A stretch of DNA of 50,822 nt. Origin: an uncultured Bacteroidia bacterium (GTDB taxonomy: Bacteria; Bacteroidota; Bacteroidia; JANWVE01). A program made the translations under genes and the position numbers. The first letter of the stretch is position 1, and each line of letters begins with the position of its first letter. Positions 9,243 through 40,350 of the stretch are shown here, piece by piece. The stretch covers positions 1 to 50,822 of the forward strand of contig CALIZB010000030.1 in NCBI GenBank assembly GCA_938028625.1, written 5' to 3'. The notes beneath the pieces are model-generated. The model worked only from the letters and a program-made list of their open reading frames with translations, did not search any database and was not told the DNA's origin.

Positions 9243-10628
9243 TCAAATTTGTATTCCTATAATACACATATCATCGGTTTGAGGGTTATTACCTTGCCAT
9301 TGGGTAAGCGTTTCTTCAATAATATACTTTTGTATTCTCATAGGTTGGTAAAAATTCTGATGTAAAAGTTGTTTCAAATTATTTTTTCCAAATTTTTTAT
9401 CCCTCTCACCACCAAATTGGTCTGTAATACCATCAGTAAAAAGATAAATTCTATCACCTTTGTTTAAGGTGAATTCTTTTTTATGAAAGTTTTTATTTTG
9501 CCAGTCTTCATCGTAACCAATAAAAATTTTATCACCTTGTATTTCCTCTAATTGTTCTATAGTATCTTCCCTCATAACCCACAAAGGTCTATTAGCACCT
9601 GAGAATTCTACTGAAAACGTTTTTGTATCAATACTCAATAAAGAAATATCCATGCCGTCCTTGATATAAGTTTCATTTTGATGAGGATTAAGCGTATAAA
9701 TGACTTTTTCTCTTACAGAAGTTAAGGCTTTACTAGGGTCTAAAATTTGCTGTTCTTTGATAACTTGGTTAAGAAAATTGTTATTGATCATGGTCATAAA
9801 CGCACCAGGTACGCCATGTCCTGTACAATCGCCTACCGCAATAACTATTTTCTCGTCATGCTGAGCAAACCAATAAAAATCACCAGAAACAATATCCTTA
9901 GGTTTGTACAAAATAAAAACATCTTGAAAATTTTTACGTATTACCTCTTCGTTAGGTAAAATACTCATCTGAATACGTTTTGCATAGGTAATACTCTCAG
10001 TAATAGACTTATTTTTGTCTTCAATGTCTATTTTTTGTTGTTGTATGGTCAAGGTATTACGAAAAAATTCAATGTTACTATGATAATTGTTATCCGCAAT
10101 AAAAATCATTAAAAGTAAAATAGAAAGTGTCGCAAAACCTCCTCCACCTAAAATTTCTACTATGGTATATGTGTTAAGAATATACGTTGTACAAAAAACA
10201 CTTATAGTAGATAAAGAATATAAAAGGTTATGGCTTCGGTTAATATGAAAAGTTTGATACGTGATTGCCGTAGTAAAGGTAAATCCTGTAAAATAAGTTG
10301 GAAAACTCTGTTTATCAATAATTGCGAACATATACGCTAATGCAGAAGTAATAGAAAAAAAAATGATATGTTGTTTTTGTTGATAAGTAAGTTTATTTCT
10401 AAATAAGTAACCGAAAAGAAAGCTAAGCCCTCCAATAATTCTTATAGGAAGTATTTTTAACCACACATTGTAAGCAAACAAATAATCAAAGAAAATCCAT
10501 ATAAACCATATAATAAAACCTACGAATAGAATTATAGTTGTGATTTTATTCTGTTTTGTAGCGGTTAGTGCCTCTATTTCTTTGTCAGTATTTTGAGTAA
10601 AAATTTTTTTTATTTTATTTGTTTTCAT
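9243..10628 (-). CDS. Membrane-bound SpoIIE-type serine phosphatase
   Basis: A 461-residue signalling protein. The N-terminal half has six or so hydrophobic helices (about residues 25-195), then a short coiled coil (TIQQQKIDIEDKNKSITESI), then a PP2C/SpoIIE phosphatase domain with the usual motifs: VSGDFYWF, AVGDCTGHGVPGAFMTMI, FSGANRPLWV, DRIYLFTDGITDQFGG and TDDMCIIGI at the C-terminus. The Asp residues of these motifs bind the metals. Such proteins usually dephosphorylate anti-sigma-antagonist or other STAS-type proteins; none is encoded nearby. The start is taken as ATG 10628 rather than 10760 because an exact TAACTTTG box at 10656-10663 lies between them and the extra 44 residues are asparagine-rich and unlike the family. 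Confidence 0.88.
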   Translation of the reverse strand: MKTNKIKKIFTQNTDKEIEALTATKQNKITTIILFVGFIIWFIWIFFDYLFAYNVWLKILPIRIIGGLSFLFGYLFRNKLTYQQKQHIIFFSITSALAYMFAIIDKQSFPTYFTGFTFTTAITYQTFHINRSHNLLYSLSTISVFCTTYILNTYTIVEILGGGGFATLSILLLMIFIADNNYHSNIEFFRNTLTIQQQKIDIEDKNKSITESITYAKRIQMSILPNEEVIRKNFQDVFILYKPKDIVSGDFYWFAQHDEKIVIAVGDCTGHGVPGAFMTMINNNFLNQVIKEQQILDPSKALTSVREKVIYTLNPHQNETYIKDGMDISLLSIDTKTFSVEFSGANRPLWVMREDTIEQLEEIQGDKIFIGYDEDWQNKNFHKKEFTLNKGDRIYLFTDGITDQFGGERDKKFGKNNLKQLLHQNFYQPMRIQKYIIEETLTQWQGNNPQTDDMCIIGIQI

Positions 10629-10655
10629 AGAACATCTAAAAACTGAAACAGTATA

Positions 10656-10663
10656 CAAAGTTA
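10656..10663 (-). promoter_or_regulatory. -7 box TAACTTTG of the phosphatase gene
   Basis: Exact TANNTTTG on the minus strand, 27 nt before the ATG at 10628. No clear TTTG was seen at the -33 distance. Confidence 0.45.
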
Positions 10664-10837
10664 AAAAATCACTTATAATTTTCTGATTATAATTGGGTGA
10701 ATTAGTCAAATTCTTTATTAGAAAATTGATATGATCATGTGAGTTGTTTTTAATGGGCAACTTCTTTTACTACACACATAATAGGCTTTTTAAAGAATAT
10801 TATATCATTGATGTTCATTCTTACGTAATTTTACTGT

Positions 10838-11998
10838 ATGAATAAAATATTGATTACCTGTGCAAATAAAATAACGCCTTATTTAGTACAGGAAGTAGAA
10901 AGTTTAGGTTTTGAAATAACCGCTGAATATCCGTCTGCAGTAGAAATACAGGGGACTTTTCATGATACGTATACCTTAAATCTGTATTTGAGAACAGCTA
11001 ATAGAGTTTTGTACTGGTTAAAAGATTTTGTGGCTTTTAATGCAGAAGATTTGTATGCAAAAGTATTAGAAATGCCTTGGGAAAAATATCTTAACCCTGA
11101 GAGTTATTTAACAGTAGATTCTATTGTGGATAATCCTACTATTGCAAACACTCTGTATCCTAATGTAAAATGTAAAGATGCTATCGTAGACCGAATAATG
11201 CAAAAAACAGGAAAGCGACCTAACTCTGGTCCTGAACCGAAAGGGGCTATGATATTTTTGTATTGGAAAAATAATGATGCGAGCATTTATTTAGATACTT
11301 CAGGAGAAGTTTTATCCAAACATGGATACCGAAGACAGCCTTTTCAAGCACCTTTGCAAGAAAACCTTGCGGCATCTATCATTTATGCTACACAATGGGA
11401 CAAAAACACGCACTTCATAAATCCTATGACAGGTAGTGGCACATTAGCTATTGAAGCGGCAATGATGGCATTAAACAAACCTCCAGGTATTCTGCGTAAT
11501 AATTTTGCTTTTATGCACTATAACGAATTTGACAAAAAAATATGGTCAGCAGTGCGTAGAAAAGCCAATACAGGTATTGAGAAAAAATTAGACATTCAGA
11601 TTATTGCTACAGACATAAACCCAAAAGCCATACAAGCGGCACAAGCAAATGCAGAAACCGCAGGCGTAAGTCAATATATTCAATTTAAAGTGTGTGATTT
11701 CAGAGAAACACCCATTCCGCAGGATAAAAAAGGCGTTATTATACTTAACCCTGAATATGGCATGCGTCTGGGGAAGGAAGATGAACTAAAAGCTATTTAT
11801 CAAGGTATTGGAGATTTTTTCAAACAAGAGTGTAAAGGCTATACAGGATATATTTTTACAGGAAATGATTTACTTGCAAAACATGTAGGCTTACACGCAA
11901 ACAAAAAAATTTCTTTTTACAATGCCAAAATAGAGTGCAAACTTATGAAATATGAACTTTATGAAGGTACAAAAAAAGCACCCAAGAATAATACCTGA
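10838..11998 (+). CDS. THUMP-domain 23S rRNA guanine-N2 methyltransferase, RlmL-like
   Basis: A 386-residue class I SAM-dependent RNA methyltransferase. An N-terminal ferredoxin-like/THUMP region (about residues 1-155) is followed by a Rossmann methyltransferase domain. FINPMTGSGTLAIEAAMMA (about 190-208) is the SAM-binding motif I, IIATDINPKAIQAA the acidic loop, and LNPEYGMRLG (about 305-314) the catalytic motif IV. The E. coli homologue RlmL modifies G2445 of 23S rRNA. The second proline of the usual NPPY is Glu here. The weak upstream box (TAATTTTA) is a poor match to the promoter consensus. It converges on the glutamate dehydrogenase gene, and the shared terminator overlaps its stop codon. 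Confidence 0.87.
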   Translation: MNKILITCANKITPYLVQEVESLGFEITAEYPSAVEIQGTFHDTYTLNLYLRTANRVLYWLKDFVAFNAEDLYAKVLEMPWEKYLNPESYLTVDSIVDNPTIANTLYPNVKCKDAIVDRIMQKTGKRPNSGPEPKGAMIFLYWKNNDASIYLDTSGEVLSKHGYRRQPFQAPLQENLAASIIYATQWDKNTHFINPMTGSGTLAIEAAMMALNKPPGILRNNFAFMHYNEFDKKIWSAVRRKANTGIEKKLDIQIIATDINPKAIQAAQANAETAGVSQYIQFKVCDFRETPIPQDKKGVIILNPEYGMRLGKEDELKAIYQGIGDFFKQECKGYTGYIFTGNDLLAKHVGLHANKKISFYNAKIECKLMKYELYEGTKKAPKNNT

Positions 11999-12029: not shown

Positions 12030-13313
12030 CTATAAGTTACCGCGTAACTTTAATCCTTGTGCTACTTTGTCAATAGCATAGATATATGCGGCTATGCGCA
12101 TAGTAGTTTTGTATTTAGTACGGATTTTATAGATACGTTCAAAGGCAGACTCCATAGCGGCATCCATACGTTGGTTAACTTCAGCTTCTGTCCAATATAA
12201 ACCTTGTCTATTTTGTACCCATTCATAGTAAGATACACATACGCCACCTGCATTAGCAAGAATATCAGGAACAACCATAATCTCTTTGGAAGCTAAGATA
12301 TCATCAGCATCAGCGGAGGTAGGTCCGTTTGCACCTTCTACAATTACTTTGGCTTTGATGTTATTAGCATTTACGTGTGTAATCTGGTCTTCACGTGCCG
12401 CAGGAACAAGAACGTCTACATCAAGTTCTAAAAGTTCTTCATTTGTAATTTCTTTACAGCCCGTAAATCCTTTAAGAGATTTTTTATTATTTTCCGCATA
12501 ACGAATAGCACCTGCTATATCAATACCATGCTCGTTATAGTATCCTCCCGAAGCATCACTAATGGCTACTACACGAAGTCCTTTTTGGGCAAGCAGTTTA
12601 GCAGAGATAGAACCCACATTACCAAATCCTTGAATAGCACAGGTGGCTTTTTTAGGTTCAATGTCCAAAGTTTTGAGTGCGGCAAGTGTAGCTACCATAA
12701 CGCCTCTTCCCGTAGCTTCTACTCTACCTTCTGAACCTCCAATAAGCACGGGTTTTCCTGTAATAACCGCGGGTGTGTATCCGCCTTTAATCTGGCTGTA
12801 CTCGTCTACTATCCAAGCCATTTCCTGACCGCTTGTACCCATATCAGGTGCGGGAATATCTTGGTCAGGACCTATAATATCCGCAATAGCTTTGGCATAG
12901 CCGCGGGTAAGGCGCTCTAATTCTCCTTTGGACAACTCTTTTGGATTTACACAAATACCACCTTTACCCCCCCCATAAGGCACACCAATAACAGCACATT
13001 TCCATGTCATCCATGCGGCAAGGGCTTTTACTTCGTCCAAGTGTACGTCCGGGGCATAACGGATACCCCCTTTGGCAGGACCGAGAATAGTACTGTGTTG
13101 TACCCGAAAACCTTCAAAAACTTTTAACTCGCCATTATCCATGACCACAGGAATATTGACAATCAACTGTTTCTGAGGAGATTTGAGTACATTATAAGTA
13201 GCTTTATCTAACTCTAAATGTTTTGCGGCAATATCAAACCGCTTCATCATGGATTCAAATGGGCTTAATTCTGTACCATGACTTTGTTGTGAATTTTTTT
13301 CTTTTTTTGCCAT
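12030..13313 (-). CDS. gdhA: Glutamate dehydrogenase (Glu/Leu/Phe/Val dehydrogenase family)
   Basis: A 427-residue enzyme that interconverts glutamate and 2-oxoglutarate plus ammonia in the cytoplasm. The family lysines are present: K81 in LGPAKGGIRY, K105 in WMTWKCAVIG and the catalytic K117 in PYGGGKGGI. The dinucleotide site is CAIQGFGNVGS, and APDMGTSGQEMAWI and VVPDILANAGGV follow the family pattern. Length and motifs fit the NAD-type RocG/GudB branch better than the 450-residue NADPH-type E. coli enzyme, but cofactor preference is an inference. The first about 15 residues are polar and rich in Lys and Gln. It is a single-gene unit with TTTG-N19-TAATTTTG upstream and a strong terminator downstream. 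Confidence 0.92.
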   Translation of the reverse strand: MAKKEKNSQQSHGTELSPFESMMKRFDIAAKHLELDKATYNVLKSPQKQLIVNIPVVMDNGELKVFEGFRVQHSTILGPAKGGIRYAPDVHLDEVKALAAWMTWKCAVIGVPYGGGKGGICVNPKELSKGELERLTRGYAKAIADIIGPDQDIPAPDMGTSGQEMAWIVDEYSQIKGGYTPAVITGKPVLIGGSEGRVEATGRGVMVATLAALKTLDIEPKKATCAIQGFGNVGSISAKLLAQKGLRVVAISDASGGYYNEHGIDIAGAIRYAENNKKSLKGFTGCKEITNEELLELDVDVLVPAAREDQITHVNANNIKAKVIVEGANGPTSADADDILASKEIMVVPDILANAGGVCVSYYEWVQNRQGLYWTEAEVNQRMDAAMESAFERIYKIRTKYKTTMRIAAYIYAIDKVAQGLKLRGNL

Positions 13314-13336
13314 AGATGGTTTTATAAATCAACACT

Positions 13337-13367
13337 CAAAATTAGGTGTACTTTGATAAAATACAAA
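13337..13367 (-). promoter_or_regulatory. Promoter of the glutamate dehydrogenase gene
   Basis: On the minus strand: TTTG (13364-13367), exactly 19 nt, TAATTTTG (13337-13344), 23 nt before the ATG at 13313. One of the best consensus matches in the window. Confidence 0.68.
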
Positions 13368-13476
13368 ATATTTTACTCTTTTTGAGCGGATTCTTATAAC
13401 TGACAGTACTATTACGTTTTTACATGCTATAAACTAAAATATTTATACCCGTCTGCGAACTAACCTGTACTATTCT

Positions 13477-13484
13477 TATGTTTG
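13477..13484 (+). promoter_or_regulatory. -7 box TATGTTTG of the MMPL gene
   Basis: Exact TANNTTTG 12 nt before the ATG at 13497; the -33 element is not obvious. Confidence 0.45.
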
Positions 13485-13496
13485 TAGTCTTGTTTT

Positions 13497-15761
13497 ATGC
13501 AGATAAATAAAAAATTCTACTTTTTTGAACGTTGGTACTTGCTTGTGATAGCTGTATTTATCATTTTATTTGCTGTAAGTATATACGGCATGACGTTTTT
13601 ACGTTTTAATTACAAATTTGATATTTTTTTCCCAAAGGGAGATGCTAATCTTGCTTTTTATGAAAATTACAAAAAACAATACGGACCTGATGATAACATA
13701 GTTTCTATTGCTATTGAAAATAACGGAAAACCTATTTGGGACACTCAATTTCTGACCGTTTGCGATACACTTGCCAATCAGTTCCGCAAACTAAAACATG
13801 TCAAGGAAGTGTTTTGTATCACCCAGGCAAAACGCATACAAAGAGGTATATTAGGCTATGAACCTATTCCTGTTTTACCTTATTACAACATTAAAGATTA
13901 CAAACCTTATTCAGAAAATCTAAAAAATGAGCTTTTTATCAAAAACACGCTTATCAGTGACGATGAAAAATCTGTGGCTATTCGTTTAGTGTATGACCCT
14001 GCTATTATAGATAATAATGAAAAAGATATATTAGACGCTCAAATACAAGATATTTTACACAAAAACAAGATAAAACAATTTTGGATTACAGGCGTACCGC
14101 ATATACGCACACAATACGTGAATATAGTACAGAGAGAAATGGCAATTTTTATGACGGCTTCTATTATTATCACCATTATTGTCTTGATATTCACCTTTTA
14201 TAGTTTTTGGGGCGTTTTTATACCGTTATTGTGTGTAGTACTTGCTTTATTAGCCACTTTGGGACTAATAGGCTTCACAACAAGAGATTTAGGCGTAATG
14301 ACTAACCTTATTCCTGTAATTATGTTCATGGTAGGTGTTTCGGATAGCATTCATATTATTAGCCATTACAAAGAATATCTACAAAAAGGAGAGAGTAAAA
14401 AAGATGCTATTGCACATTCACTTAAAGCCATTGGTATCTCTACCTTCATTACAGGATTTACTACGGCGGTAGGTTTTGCTTCTTTGGCTGTATCTAATAT
14501 GCTTCCTATACGAGAATTTGGGCTTTTTACAGCTTTCGGAGTAATGATAGCTTGGCTGAATGCTTTAATTCTTACGCCATGTGTTTTATATCTTATTCCT
14601 CCTATGAAACCCTCTCGTTGGGAACAAAAACAAAAAGACTGGAAACCTTTTATTCAAAGCATTATTCGGATTACAGAAAAATATCCTGTACGGGTAATAG
14701 TGATGTTTGCCGTCATTGGCGCAGTAGCTCTGTATGGCACAAATACCATTAAACAGAATGCCTTTTTATTAGATGATATAAATGATAAAAACAAAATAAA
14801 ACAAGAGTTACGCTATTTTGAACAACATTATCAAGGTTTGCGACCCGTAGAAATTGCCATTACAGCCAAGGGTAAAGAAAATTTTAATAGTCCTATTTTT
14901 TTAGCAGAATTGGATACTTTTCAGACTTTTATAGAGTCGCATACGCATACGCAAGCGCTCTCTGCGGCAACTCTACAAAAATACATTCATCAAATTATAG
15001 AGTATGGAGACTCTACGGCTTACACTATCCCTGATACAAGAAATGAAGTAAAAAAAATATACAAACTAGCCAACAAAGCAGGTAGTCAAAATCCGTTTAA
15101 ATTATGTATGATAGACAGCACACAAGGCAGAATTACTGCTAAAATGAAAGATTTAGGCATGATGAAAGTAGCTGAAATCAATGAGAAAATTGAGAATTTT
15201 TACAGAACAAAAATAGATACTTCTCTATTTAGCTATAAACAAACGGGTTCGGCTATGCTTGTAGACCAAAATAATACTTATTTAGTCAGTAATTTATTTA
15301 CAAGTTTATTGTTATCTACAGGTGCAGTAGCTTTACTCATGGGGCTTCTGTTCCGTTCTTTCCGAATTATTTTGATTACTTTTATTCCTAATGTATTTCC
15401 TTTATTAGTTGCAGGGGCATGGATGGGATTTTCAGGCATTAACCTTAAAGCCTCAACTTCTATTATATTCAGCATCGCATTTGGTATAGCCGTAGATGAC
15501 ACTATCCATGTTTTGGCAAGATACCGTATAGAACGCAAAAGAGGACTTTCTAATATAGATGCGGTAAATACAACTATGCTTTCTACGGGCAGGGCAGTAA
15601 TTATTGCTTCTGTGGTGCTTATCCTGGGATTTTCTGTACTTATTCTCTCAGATTTTGGCGGAACATATTACACGGGATTATTTATGGTAGTGACTATTGT
15701 ATCTGCCATTTTTGCTGAATTATTTTTAACTCCGTTCCTGCTTAAAAAACTGATGAAGTAA
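13497..15761 (+). CDS. MMPL/RND-family exporter
   Basis: A 754-residue inner-membrane protein with the duplicated RND topology: one helix, a soluble periplasmic domain, five helices, then the same again (about residues 15-35, 215-365, 395-415, 600-750). The proton-relay TM4-like motifs are present in both halves: GVSDSIHIISHYKEY and IAVDDTIHVLARYR. This size and the absence of an adaptor or outer-membrane gene nearby suit the MMPL/Patched-like group, which often moves lipids, sterols or hopanoids rather than drugs. The substrate cannot be told from sequence. Its end converges on a small membrane-protein gene with a 45-nt gap and no clear hairpin. Confidence 0.87.
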   Translation: MQINKKFYFFERWYLLVIAVFIILFAVSIYGMTFLRFNYKFDIFFPKGDANLAFYENYKKQYGPDDNIVSIAIENNGKPIWDTQFLTVCDTLANQFRKLKHVKEVFCITQAKRIQRGILGYEPIPVLPYYNIKDYKPYSENLKNELFIKNTLISDDEKSVAIRLVYDPAIIDNNEKDILDAQIQDILHKNKIKQFWITGVPHIRTQYVNIVQREMAIFMTASIIITIIVLIFTFYSFWGVFIPLLCVVLALLATLGLIGFTTRDLGVMTNLIPVIMFMVGVSDSIHIISHYKEYLQKGESKKDAIAHSLKAIGISTFITGFTTAVGFASLAVSNMLPIREFGLFTAFGVMIAWLNALILTPCVLYLIPPMKPSRWEQKQKDWKPFIQSIIRITEKYPVRVIVMFAVIGAVALYGTNTIKQNAFLLDDINDKNKIKQELRYFEQHYQGLRPVEIAITAKGKENFNSPIFLAELDTFQTFIESHTHTQALSAATLQKYIHQIIEYGDSTAYTIPDTRNEVKKIYKLANKAGSQNPFKLCMIDSTQGRITAKMKDLGMMKVAEINEKIENFYRTKIDTSLFSYKQTGSAMLVDQNNTYLVSNLFTSLLLSTGAVALLMGLLFRSFRIILITFIPNVFPLLVAGAWMGFSGINLKASTSIIFSIAFGIAVDDTIHVLARYRIERKRGLSNIDAVNTTMLSTGRAVIIASVVLILGFSVLILSDFGGTYYTGLFMVVTIVSAIFAELFLTPFLLKKLMK

Positions 15762-35755: not shown

Positions 35756-36295
35756 ATGATTTTAACCGATATCCAGATTCTTAAAGAAATAGAAAACGGA
35801 AATATCAAAATAGAACCTTTTGATAAAACTTGTTTAGGAACAAATAGTTATGATGTACATTTAAGCAAACATTTGGCTACTTACAAAGATGAAATTTTAG
35901 ATGCTAAAAAACATAATCTTATCATACATTTTGAAATTCCTGAAGAGGGATACATTCTTTTACCTAATCGTTTGTATTTAGGTTCAACTTTGGAATATAC
36001 AGAAACATTTAATGCTGTTCCTTTTTTAGAAGGTAAAAGTTCTGTGGGACGCTTGGGTATAGATATTCATGCCACCGCAGGAAAAGGCGATATTGGTTTT
36101 TGTAACCATTGGACATTGGAAATATCTGTTTCTCAACCTGTACGCGTGTACGCAGGTATGCCTATAGGACAATTGATTTACTTTGAAGCCAAAGGAGAAG
36201 TTATGAATTATTATCATAAAAAGCCCTCAGCTAAATATAATGAACGCTCTCCTTTACCCAAAGAGTCTATGATGTGGAAGAATTTTGTAAAGTAA
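35756..36295 (+). CDS. dcd: dCTP deaminase
   Basis: A 179-residue trimeric enzyme of the dUTPase-like fold that deaminates dCTP to dUTP, feeding dTTP synthesis. MILTDIQILKEIENGNIKIEPF and LGTNSYDVHLSKHLATY are the standard start, and LEGKSSVGRLGIDIHATAGKGDIGF plus HWTLEISVSQPVRVYAGMPIGQLIYF hold the nucleotide site and the catalytic glutamate (TLE). The closing SAKYNERSPLPKESMMWKNFV is the family end. Nothing suggests a special defence version. It is followed after 8 nt by the 3' end of the convergent CARF gene with no hairpin between. Confidence 0.94.
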   Translation: MILTDIQILKEIENGNIKIEPFDKTCLGTNSYDVHLSKHLATYKDEILDAKKHNLIIHFEIPEEGYILLPNRLYLGSTLEYTETFNAVPFLEGKSSVGRLGIDIHATAGKGDIGFCNHWTLEISVSQPVRVYAGMPIGQLIYFEAKGEVMNYYHKKPSAKYNERSPLPKESMMWKNFVK

Positions 36296-36303
36296 AACTA
36301 AAT

Positions 36304-37509
36304 TCATTTTAGTTTTGGAAATTTTATTTTATCTTCTACTTCAAATGTCTCTTCAATAAATGAAATAAAATCTTGGCAAGTGTCTTTTTTTATAGGAGCT
36401 TGCCCATGTGCTAAACGAGAGTAGTTTCGTACAAATAATAGTTTTTTGAATTTATCTTGTTTTTCAAAGAAAGTTTTTGCTCTCTTATTTTTAGCTTTTT
36501 CATCAAGAACCTTAAAAGCATCAAATAATCCTAATTCTACTTTTTGTTGACTTTTTGAAATTGCCGCGTACTTTTTCTTCAAAGTATCAGGTAAAAAATC
36601 CAAACTTACAGCATCAGTTTTTATTTGAAATTCTTTTTCAAATTCTATCTGGGCAATCATTTCAACAAGTCTGTATAATCTTGATACAGCATCATCATAT
36701 TTTCCTTCATCAAATCGCCTTTTTGCATTTGATAATAAATCAACTAGGTCTATTTCGCTTAACTTTGATTCTTCACTCCCCTCTTTGAGCTTGTGCAAAT
36801 CAGTTTTATGCTCTTCAATTAATTTTTTTAACCCATGTTCAACTGCAATTTTAAGGTCAATTAAATTTAGTTTTTCAGATGCTTGCTTAAAATTAAATCT
36901 ATCCCATTGACCATAAGCCTCTGATAAAACCATATAAAAGTTTATCTTTTCTTTATATGTAGGATGTATGTTCGTACTTTCTAATAAGCTATAAGCACTA
37001 TCAAACTGATAATGATTAAATAACTCTTTAAAGAACTTTATCTTCTGTTGAGTAAAAATTGCACTAGGAGATAACAGATAAGGACGTTCTGTACCTGACA
37101 TTACTCGCCCTTGGACATCACGCGATCCAGCAACATAACTTAGTGTTTTTATTTCTCGGGCAATTGAAGCACTAACTAACGCGGCAGACATAGATTTTGT
37201 TCCACTTGTATAATCCGCAACAATCTCCTCAGGAGTATAGCCCTTTTTAATAATCTCATCAATGTAGTCTGAATACTCTTGATACAATATCTCAACATCA
37301 TTAACTTCATTAAGTTGTTTGACTATAACATCATTATCATCTCTATTTTTGGATAATTTTGTTAATATGTTATTTAATGTTTTTTCGCTCTCTGCTGAAT
37401 ATATGAAAAACAGTAAATTGGGATTTTGCTGACGAATAGAAAAAACTATTCCGTCATCTACTCCTGAACCTGTTCCAATAGTGATTATCATTGCTTTTTT
37501 CATGTTCAT
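36304..37509 (-). CDS. CARF-HEPN protein, Cas02710 (TIGR02710) type, stand-alone
   Basis: A 401-residue protein of the CRISPR-associated Cas02710 family. The N-terminal CARF Rossmann domain (about residues 1-150) has IITIGTGSG (8-16) and the ligand-loop motif DYTSGTKSMSAAL (99-111). The middle is helical. The C-terminal HEPN domain (about 260-390) contains RRFDEGKYDDAVSRLYRLVE and the ribonuclease signature R361-x6-H368 (RNYSRLAH). CARF domains bind cyclic oligoadenylate made by type III CRISPR complexes, and HEPN domains cut RNA, so it is a predicted cOA-activated RNase like Csm6/Csx1. No cas gene or CRISPR array occurs in the window. It has its own TATATTTG box upstream. ATG at 37509 or 37503 could be the start. 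Confidence 0.85.
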   Translation of the reverse strand: MNMKKAMIITIGTGSGVDDGIVFSIRQQNPNLLFFIYSAESEKTLNNILTKLSKNRDDNDVIVKQLNEVNDVEILYQEYSDYIDEIIKKGYTPEEIVADYTSGTKSMSAALVSASIAREIKTLSYVAGSRDVQGRVMSGTERPYLLSPSAIFTQQKIKFFKELFNHYQFDSAYSLLESTNIHPTYKEKINFYMVLSEAYGQWDRFNFKQASEKLNLIDLKIAVEHGLKKLIEEHKTDLHKLKEGSEESKLSEIDLVDLLSNAKRRFDEGKYDDAVSRLYRLVEMIAQIEFEKEFQIKTDAVSLDFLPDTLKKKYAAISKSQQKVELGLFDAFKVLDEKAKNKRAKTFFEKQDKFKKLLFVRNYSRLAHGQAPIKKDTCQDFISFIEETFEVEDKIKFPKLK

Positions 37510-37532: not shown

Positions 37533-37540
37533 CAAATATA
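37533..37540 (-). promoter_or_regulatory. -7 box TATATTTG of the CARF-HEPN gene
   Basis: Exact TANNTTTG on the minus strand, 23 nt before the ATG at 37509. No clear -33 TTTG. It is back to back with the POT promoter in a 157-nt divergent region. Confidence 0.42.
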
Positions 37541-37666: not shown

Positions 37667-39610
37667 ATGAGTTCAAGTACAAAACACCCCAGAGGACTGT
37701 ATTTGCTGTTTTTCACCGAAATGTGGGAACGTTTCAGCTACTATGGTATGCGTGCCATTTTTACCTTGTATATGGCAAAAGCGCTTTTGTTTGATAAAGC
37801 ATTAAGTTCCAGTATTTATGGAAGTTATACAGGATTAGTTTATTTAACACCGCTTATTGGGGGTTATGTGGCAGACAGATACTGGGGTAACAGGCGTTCT
37901 ATTCTGTTTGGTGGTATTCTTATGGCAATAGGACAACTTTTAATGTTTGCCAGCGGAAGTGTGTACAGTAGCAGTACTACCACAGCCTCTTCTTTAATGT
38001 TTTTAGGACTTGGTTTTTTAATATTCGGTAATGGATTTTTCAAGCCTAATATTTCTACTATGGTAGGGCAATTGTATCCTGCTAATGACAAACGAGTAGA
38101 TAGTGCTTTTACCATATTTTATATGGGCATCAATTTGGGGGCGTTTTTTGCACCTTTGGTATGCGGAGGCTTAGGAGATACAGGTAATCCCTCTGACTTC
38201 AAATGGGGATTTCTCGCCGCAGGTACAGGTATGATTATCAGTATATTATCTTTTTATTTTTTCAAAGATAAGTATATTATTACTCCCGAAGGTCTGCCTA
38301 TTGGGGATAAGCCTAAAAAAGAACTTAAAACAGAAAGCACTCCCGCACCTAAAATCAATACCAAAGAAATTCTTAAATGGTTGGGCATTGAAGTACTGGT
38401 ATGGATATTCTGCAAAGGTGTATTAGGATTTGATATTATTGGTGCGTTTATTTACTCGCTGGGTTTTGTGGCCCCTGCTTATGTGATTTCAGATAAAAGT
38501 CTGAACAAAATAGAAAGACACAGAATATGGGTAATTTACATTGCCGCATTCTTTGTAATTTTCTTTTGGGCGGCTTTTGAACAAGCAGGCGCATCTTTAA
38601 CGTTCTTTGCCGAAGAACAAACTAATAGACAATTAGGGAGTATAACCATACCTACCAGCTATTTTCAGAGTATCAATGCAGTAGCTATAGTTATTTTTGC
38701 ACCTGTTTTTGCTATCATATGGACAGAATTGGCTAAAAGAAACAAAGAACCTAATTCCCCTTTGAAGCAGGCTATAGGTTTGTTTTTACTTGCTGTAGGG
38801 TATCTTATTATTGCTTTTGGTGTAAAAGGTATATCCCCTGAAACCAAAGTAAGCATGCTTTGGCTGATTACATTGTATTTACTACATACCTTTGGGGAAT
38901 TATGTTTATCTCCTATCGGTTTATCTATGGTAGTAAAACTTGCACCTGTCCGTTTTGCATCTTTGTTAATGGGAATTTGGTTTTTGTCTACCGCAATGGC
39001 AAATAAATTTGCAGGTGATTTAAGTGCTTTATACCCTGATGAAATTAAACAGGAAGGCAATATCAGTGCGGTTTCTTATACATTCAAGCAAGATACCATT
39101 CAAAAAAGCATTTCTCGTATAGATAGCAGTTATGTTAAATTACTGCCCAAAGAAAGTGCAGTTTGGAAACTTACTCGCAGTAATGATAGTTACAAAGCCC
39201 CCGAAACAAGTGCATTTGAACAGTTCTTAATTAATCTTGGATTAAGGAAAGCACCACAAAAACCTAAAGACTCTTTACTTGCTATCACTCAACTTCCTAA
39301 TCCAAATGGGTATAAACTCTCAGAATATCATACAAAATTGATAGGTTTAAGCAGTAAAGATATTTATAGAACCTATTTTAGTGAAGACGGTAAAACAGCT
39401 TATTTGCTCAAAGCTAAAAAAGATAATACGGTTGAAATTCAGTATTGGAACTTATCTCCGAAAAAACCACACTTTATAGGATTTGAAATAACCAACCTAT
39501 ACAGTTTCTTTATGATATTTGTAGGTATGGCAGGTATGGCTTCCGTGATATTGTTTGTTATATCTAAAAAATTATACAACATGATGCACGAAGAAGTAAA
39601 GGATAAATAA
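37667..39610 (+). CDS. POT-family proton/oligopeptide transporter
   Basis: A 647-residue inner-membrane di/tripeptide importer of the MFS. The proton-site motif ExxERF is in FTEMWERFSYYGMRA (residues about 17-31). The two PTR2 signatures are GGYVADRYWGNRRSILFGG and FTIFYMGINLGAFFAPLVCGG. Further helices are spread over about residues 50-455. Between FAGDLSALYPDE (about 450) and the last helix (LYSFFMIFVGMAGMASVILFV, about 611-631) lies a soluble insert of about 150 residues with no hydrophobic segment, longer than in E. coli DtpA (500 residues). Such inserts occur in other Bacteroidota POT proteins; their role is unknown. Confidence 0.9.
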   Translation: MSSSTKHPRGLYLLFFTEMWERFSYYGMRAIFTLYMAKALLFDKALSSSIYGSYTGLVYLTPLIGGYVADRYWGNRRSILFGGILMAIGQLLMFASGSVYSSSTTTASSLMFLGLGFLIFGNGFFKPNISTMVGQLYPANDKRVDSAFTIFYMGINLGAFFAPLVCGGLGDTGNPSDFKWGFLAAGTGMIISILSFYFFKDKYIITPEGLPIGDKPKKELKTESTPAPKINTKEILKWLGIEVLVWIFCKGVLGFDIIGAFIYSLGFVAPAYVISDKSLNKIERHRIWVIYIAAFFVIFFWAAFEQAGASLTFFAEEQTNRQLGSITIPTSYFQSINAVAIVIFAPVFAIIWTELAKRNKEPNSPLKQAIGLFLLAVGYLIIAFGVKGISPETKVSMLWLITLYLLHTFGELCLSPIGLSMVVKLAPVRFASLLMGIWFLSTAMANKFAGDLSALYPDEIKQEGNISAVSYTFKQDTIQKSISRIDSSYVKLLPKESAVWKLTRSNDSYKAPETSAFEQFLINLGLRKAPQKPKDSLLAITQLPNPNGYKLSEYHTKLIGLSSKDIYRTYFSEDGKTAYLLKAKKDNTVEIQYWNLSPKKPHFIGFEITNLYSFFMIFVGMAGMASVILFVISKKLYNMMHEEVKDK

Positions 39611-39634: not shown

Positions 39635-39668
39635 ATCCCTGACCGTTAAACAGTCAGGGATGTTTTTT
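39635..39668 (+). terminator. Rho-independent terminator of the POT gene
   Basis: A perfect 9-bp GC-containing stem (39635-39643 with 39653-39661, 9-nt loop), then GTTTTTT. It overlaps the stop codon of the convergent membrane-protein gene. Confidence 0.82.
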
Positions 39669-40350
39669 ATGGTGTAATAAAATTTGTATCAATTTTATCG
39701 CTTGGGGTTTCATTTTCATTTTTTTCAGGAATATGTGTATCTTTTTTCATTTTAATAGCAAGAATAACCGCAGATACTAATGCTGTAAATACTCCGAGAG
39801 TGTTTACATAAAAACTATATTGAAGTATAATACCAAGTGCTTTTACGCCACTGTCGCTGAATTTTTGCACTATATAGATTTGGCATGCTAATAAAAAAAA
39901 CAGGGTTAAATTAACATTGATATACAAACACTTAAAATTATTTTTAACTGCCATCAGTATAGGAATAATGTATAGTAACCCGTATGCTATCAGGACTATC
40001 ATGGAAGTTGTTTTATCTTCTAATTTTACATTATTGCTTTGAAATACACTGTATGCCATATAAAAAAACGTCAGCATAAGTAAGCCACTGCTTATGGGTA
40101 CAAAACGCATATTCTTTTCATTGAGAAGTATTCCTGCCCATACCCATAAAGCACAGAGAATAGCTGTTACTATTGTAATTACTTTGAGATTTTGAATAAG
40201 TTTTATGATATCAGTAGCAAAAAATAGGGCAAGTCCTTCAATTTTTATCCATGTAAGGATACAACTTATGAGTGTGAGCAAAATACCACCCGAAAATACT
40301 TTTACGGGGATATTGGAAAAATATATTTTTTTAATCTGTTCGTTTATCAT
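39667..40350 (-). CDS. Six-helix membrane protein, unknown function
   Basis: A 227-residue polytopic protein. About six hydrophobic segments can be seen: GGILLTLISCILTWI, VITIVTAILCALWVWAGIL, ISSGLLMLTFFYMAYSVF, SMIVLIAYGLLYIIPILMAV, VNLTLFFLLACQIYIV and YVNTLGVFTALVSAVILAIKM. The C-terminal about 25 residues are charged and probably cytoplasmic (KKDTHIPEKNENETPSDKID). No conserved motif or family was recognised. It starts 4 nt after an exact TACTTTTG box directly behind the terminator of the upstream TPR gene, so it is its own transcription unit. Confidence 0.68.
   Translation of the reverse strand: MINEQIKKIYFSNIPVKVFSGGILLTLISCILTWIKIEGLALFFATDIIKLIQNLKVITIVTAILCALWVWAGILLNEKNMRFVPISSGLLMLTFFYMAYSVFQSNNVKLEDKTTSMIVLIAYGLLYIIPILMAVKNNFKCLYINVNLTLFFLLACQIYIVQKFSDSGVKALGIILQYSFYVNTLGVFTALVSAVILAIKMKKDTHIPEKNENETPSDKIDTNFITP

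Follow-up and report, generated by a model that had tools for sequence, protein, structure and literature searches.

A putative CARF-HEPN ribonuclease gene of the TIGR02710 family found away from the type III CRISPR loci of a Bacteroidia genome

CARF-HEPN proteins of the Csx1/Csm6 family are antiviral enzymes that cut RNA once type III CRISPR systems have sent out a small alarm molecule. A gene of this kind was found at positions 36304-37509 (minus strand) of a 50,822-nucleotide stretch of Bacteroidia DNA (the window), and its location raises the question of where the signal for the protein would come from. Genes of the family usually lie inside a type III locus or next to one, a placement that does not define the function; here no cas gene lies nearby, and no CRISPR-like repeat was found in the window. 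A preliminary description of the DNA had offered two answers: an orphan effector whose signal comes from a remote type III locus, or part of a CRISPR-independent alarm system using another nucleotide signal.

Domains and ligand pocket of the protein

The gene encodes a protein of 401 residues in an intact minus-strand frame, and the plus-strand frame across the same positions contains many stops. The protein matches the NCBIfam model TIGR02710 with 193 bits against a cut-off of 83.9 (E 6.9e-57) and the PADLOC model CARF1--CARF_HEPN with an E of 2.4e-93. Three domains were identified. The N-terminal CARF domain spans residues 1 to about 148 (37066-37509, minus) and shows alternating beta and alpha elements in an AlphaFold2 model, while the Pfam CARF model (Cas_Csm6_CARF, residues 60-120) scores just below threshold (25.5 against 27.5). 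It is followed by a 6H linker domain at about residues 149-250 (36760-37065, minus; PF22205 Csm6_6H, residues 153-237, E 4e-13, score 49.7 against a cut-off of 27.6) and by the C-terminal HEPN RNase domain at about residues 251-401 (36307-36759, minus; PF09670, residues 255-390, E 6.9e-29, score 101 against a cut-off of 27). The motifs reported earlier were located exactly in the translated minus-strand protein, with GTGSG at residues 12-16 and the ligand motif DYTSGTKS at residues 99-106 (37192-37215, minus) in the CARF domain, and the active-site motif R361-x6-H368 (RNYSRLAH; 36406-36429, minus) in the HEPN domain.

The mean pLDDT of the AlphaFold2 model is 94.4 and, when it was searched with Foldseek, the best PDB fold matches were the Thermus thermophilus Csm6 structures, led by the cA4-bound form 8JH1 (E 7.8e-16). 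The model thus has the CARF-6H-HEPN fold of the TIGR02710/Csx1-Csm6 effectors. Judged by every sequence feature that could be tested, the protein is a member of this family; it is an ordinary member in an uncommon genomic position, with the usual operon placement alone missing.

The residues expected to bind the ligand and to cut RNA were found to be invariant when the protein was aligned with 68 relatives. R361 and H368 are kept in 69/69 aligned family members and K105 in 71/71 aligned sequences, so the loss of the R-x6-H pair in close homologues, which had been named as evidence against an RNase sensor, did not occur. In the alignment, R361 and H368 are equivalent to R361 and H368 of TTHB144 and to R415 and H422 of TTHB152, both from T. 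thermophilus. K105 corresponds to K94 of TTHB144 and K137 of TTHB152, T13 to T10 of TTHB144, and Y125 to Y161 of TTHB152. TTHB144 is a cA4-activated, self-limiting HEPN RNase in which K94A removes activation by cA4 and H368A removes RNase activity, and its CARF domain degrades cA4 at a slow rate (PMC6599890). T11 of TTHB144 is replaced by G14 in the window protein, so the rate of self-degradation may differ. Our best guess is that the ligand is cA4, since it is the ligand of the closest members that have been characterised and the commonest messenger among type III loci (PMC11229360); this assignment is made by homology to the characterised Thermus proteins, with which the window protein shares 18-27% identity.

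The same pocket residues allow another reading, in which the CARF domain mainly binds and degrades cyclic oligoadenylate, thereby damping the genome's two type III systems, and the HEPN domain is secondary. K105 and Y125 match K137 and Y161 of TTHB152, the TTHB144 CARF domain degrades cA4, and an orphan CARF protein, Csx15, serves as a sponge for cA4 (PMC13148439). We consider such a ring nuclease or messenger sponge very unlikely, since the invariant HEPN motif argues for an active RNase and the ring-nuclease rate of TTHB144 is slow.

Genomic position and the type III loci of the genome

As described before, the gene stands alone between two genes that lie outside the system. It is convergent with dcd (dCTP deaminase-like; 35756-36295, plus; PF22769, E 1.1e-34), their stop codons being 8 bp apart, and divergent from a POT/PTR2 peptide transporter gene (37667-39610, plus; PF00854, E 4.3e-63) across a gap of 157 bp. 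A 227-residue predicted membrane-like protein with no Pfam match (39667-40350, minus) adjoins the transporter. Within the gap, about 24 bp upstream of the ATG, lies TATATTTG (37533-37540, minus), a candidate for the Bacteroidota -7 promoter motif TAnnTTTG, although a single site of this pattern is weak evidence. The pattern occurs 114 times in window positions 1-50822 against 83 expected (0/100 shuffles), and this enrichment is consistent with a -7 element of the Bacteroidota type. A sigma-70 promoter scan gave matches no more often than chance and an Rfam scan of the window gave no match. The claim that the gene has its own promoter is therefore plausible from this box, but not proven.

The window, contig C30, belongs to an assembly of 2.9 Mb in 170 contigs that is 99% complete. 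In such a draft, misassembly or mis-binning might have placed a gene from a type III operon on this contig, and dcd and the transporter gene are indeed split between contigs in each of the two same-genus genomes, so that no empty site can be defined there. We regard this explanation as extremely improbable: both flanks match the same-genus genomes at 72-78% nucleotide identity, the gene has a GC content (30.6%) and GC3 (20.6%) slightly below but close to those of its neighbours, and no cas gene adjoins it. Furthermore, a homologue from Bacteroidetes bacterium UBA2322 is a second case without a cas gene on its visible side.

The remark that no CRISPR locus was in view holds for the contig but not for the genome. 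Searches with Cas10 and RAMP models located a III-A locus on contig C20 and a III-B locus on contigs C14 and C71, which ends the impression that type III systems are missing, on which the initial appeal of the gene had rested. The III-A locus encodes Cas6, Cas10/Csm1, Csm2, Csm3, Csm4, Csm5 and a Csm6-like CARF-HEPN protein, together with an array of at least 8 repeats. The III-B locus encodes Cmr1, Cas10/Cmr2, Cmr3, a CARF7-family effector, Cmr4, Cmr5 and Cmr6, with two repeats at the contig end, and its two contigs overlap exactly over 141 bp. Csm3, Csm4, Cmr5 and Cmr6 were named by position and RAMP matches, without a library scan of their own.

Both Cas10 proteins carry the GGDD cyclase motif, so the genome that holds the window gene also encodes two Cas10s that, judged by this motif, are competent to make the messenger. 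The III-A Cas10 (12484-14838, minus, of locus L009 = G000:C20:28000-45314) has LLHRIAK where HD nucleases have HD, which suggests that its DNase was lost and its cyclase retained, and the Cmr2 protein begins without an HD domain, both as judged from the sequences. Being HD-deficient with GGDD, both systems should depend on messenger-activated effectors.

Each locus has an effector of its own. The III-A Csm6-like protein (L009 7726-9126, minus) is very divergent, with a sub-threshold PF09670 match, GGIDAI in place of SGTKSM and the R-x6-H motif kept; PF09670 matches in the genome are limited to this protein and the window protein. The CARF7-family effector (L011 1394-2773, plus; also L168, L169, L170 and L171) was observed between cmr3 and cmr4 in 5/5 III-B loci seen, which come from the window's genome, one same-genus genome and UBA2322. 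PADLOC labels it CARF-RelE, but by eye its C-terminus resembles a PD-(D/E)xK nuclease, with no Pfam match.

Relatives, ancestry and the proposed mechanism

A scan of 84,980 species genomes gave 382 relatives, and the best 80 loci were inspected; no relatives were found in the phage and viral collections. The neighbours of homologues, which the preliminary description had suggested surveying for conserved CRISPR-free surroundings, turned out mostly to be type III loci: complex genes of this type are present in the available stretch at 56 of the best 80. Another 11 contain cas1, cas2 or cas6, and 13 contain no cas gene, mostly because the contig ends close by; most of these 13 were accordingly set aside as evidence for orphans. 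Only one of them, L084, is free of recognised cas genes over about 10 kb on either side; its homologue (10004-11239, plus) belongs to a Candidatus Calescibacterium genome with one Cas10. One group of relatives, L031-L034 (e.g. L031 3510-5045), has a longer N-terminus; here the R-x6-H motif of the HEPN domain is gone, but the GGTKTM motif of the CARF domain remains. These genes are found at a distance from recognised cas genes, and their genomes do have Cas10.

In a survey of 396 genomes of the phylum, with Cas10 scored by a palm domain above the cut-off, the homologue was found in 12, including the window's own genome, and all 12 have Cas10, compared with 75/396 overall (Fisher p = 1e-9, which overstates independence as the genomes are related). 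In the maximum-likelihood tree the window protein pairs with the UBA2322 protein with full support (67% identity), and this pair sits within a clade of Ignavibacteria and Bacteroidetes proteins from III-A/D operons. As the protein is nested in an operon-encoded clade, its gene most likely left a III-A/D operon, that is, by the tree it descends from an operon-encoded type III effector that was later relocated. The codons of the pair give a dN of 0.22, a dS of 1.86 and a dN/dS of about 0.12, with dS near saturation, and are consistent with purifying selection since the split from UBA2322.

The orphan position and the absence of the gene from the two same-genus genomes would also fit a decaying, non-functional remnant of a type III operon that has been lost. 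This is highly improbable because the 401-residue frame is intact, all catalytic and pocket residues are kept and the dN/dS is low, with dS near saturation.

The UBA2322 homologue (L068) has no cas gene in 9.9 kb on its upstream side, and its contig ends 195 bp past its stop, so its off-operon status is visible upstream only. A GmrSD-type (type IV restriction) gene (L068 7924-9885, plus) lies directly upstream in the same direction. In the UBA2322 genome there are three III-B loci, in all of which a CARF7 effector separates cmr3 from cmr4, and the Cas10 hits are III-B only. III-B is the only subtype common to both genomes and may therefore be a slightly better guess for the partner, though weakly so.

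This homologue also bears on the CRISPR-independent alarm system, in which the orphan would be deaf to type III systems and re-wired to another nucleotide signal, of the CBASS type, the mCpol/Panoptes type or from an unknown cyclase. No cas gene is near the window gene on its contig of 50.8 kb, its closest relative is likewise off-operon on the visible side, beside the GmrSD-type gene, and such a change has a precedent in the orphan CARF protein VC1899. Other observations make this unlikely. A search of the genome with PF18144 (SMODS), the sole CBASS cyclase family tested, gave no match at E 0.1, and a search with PF18182 for stand-alone mCpol gave only sub-threshold matches, both at the Cas10 genes. 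The motif that contacts cA4 is intact, with K105 in place, homologues in the phylum survey occur only in Cas10-bearing genomes, and UBA2322 has its three III-B loci. The alarm-system half of the preliminary description thus fared poorly, while its other half, the orphan effector that draws its signal from a type III locus elsewhere, gained support from the III-A and III-B loci on other contigs, the co-occurrence with Cas10 and the operon ancestry.

We therefore favour, as the probable function, an off-operon effector of the Csx1/Csm6 type (TIGR02710) that is served in trans by one of the cell's own type III complexes. The III-A complex encoded on C20 or the III-B complex encoded on C14/C71 would recognise foreign RNA, and its Cas10 would then make cyclic oligoadenylate, most likely cA4. 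The diffusing messenger would bind the CARF pocket of a presumed dimer (T13, T101 and K105), and the bound CARF domain would switch on the HEPN sites (R361 and H368), which would cut RNA non-specifically and so slow the infection. The CARF domain may also slowly degrade the messenger and reset the enzyme, making the protein self-limiting. Against this explanation, both same-genus genomes lack the gene yet have type III systems, and a third effector is not obviously needed because each type III locus has its own.

Sharing of effectors between type III loci was proposed on statistical grounds (PMC11229360), and effectors have been coupled experimentally to a foreign type III complex (PMC7969007). 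It is conceivable, though rather doubtful, that the clade of the window and UBA2322 proteins is an effector line that came out of a III-A/D operon to become a shared chromosomal effector that several type III complexes, in this genome III-A and III-B, would activate in trans. If this were true, the shared effector would serve as a reserve against phages that block a locus or the effector encoded there. For tests of effector sharing, naturally off-operon effectors that keep their sensing and catalytic residues are useful, and this genome offers such a case, with two HD-deficient, cyclase-positive Cas10 systems and, elsewhere on the chromosome, a third CARF effector. Such effectors escape surveys that are restricted to the few kb next to CRISPR loci.

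Comparison with known systems

Orphan CARF proteins such as VC1899 and PfCsx15 were known before this gene, as was the proposal of effector sharing. Both are encoded away from CRISPR loci like the window protein but belong to different families, and VC1899 has lost the cA4 site and cA4 control, whereas the window protein keeps the pocket residues. The operon-encoded Ignavibacteria and Bacteroidetes relatives (e.g. L069, L071, L072, L073 and L076) belong to the same clade at 40-44% identity; they are found among cas10-csm genes, usually with cas1, and the window gene is not. The UBA2322 homologue resembles the window protein in sequence, in the lack of a cas gene on its visible side and in the presence of III-B in the genome, but it differs in neighbourhood.

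The best fold match is TTHB152, the T. thermophilus Csm6 (PDB 5FSH and 8JH1; TM up to 0.75), with the equivalent pairs K137/K105, Y161/Y125, R415/R361 and H422/H368. It is unlike the window protein in its identity of about 18%, its longer N-terminus and a gene that adjoins csm5. TTHB144 of T. thermophilus HB8 belongs to the same TIGR02710 family and has the same length (401 residues), with K94/K105, T10/T13, R361 and H368 equivalent. It differs in that identity is about 26%, T11 is G14 here and its gene adjoins cas1 within a type III region.
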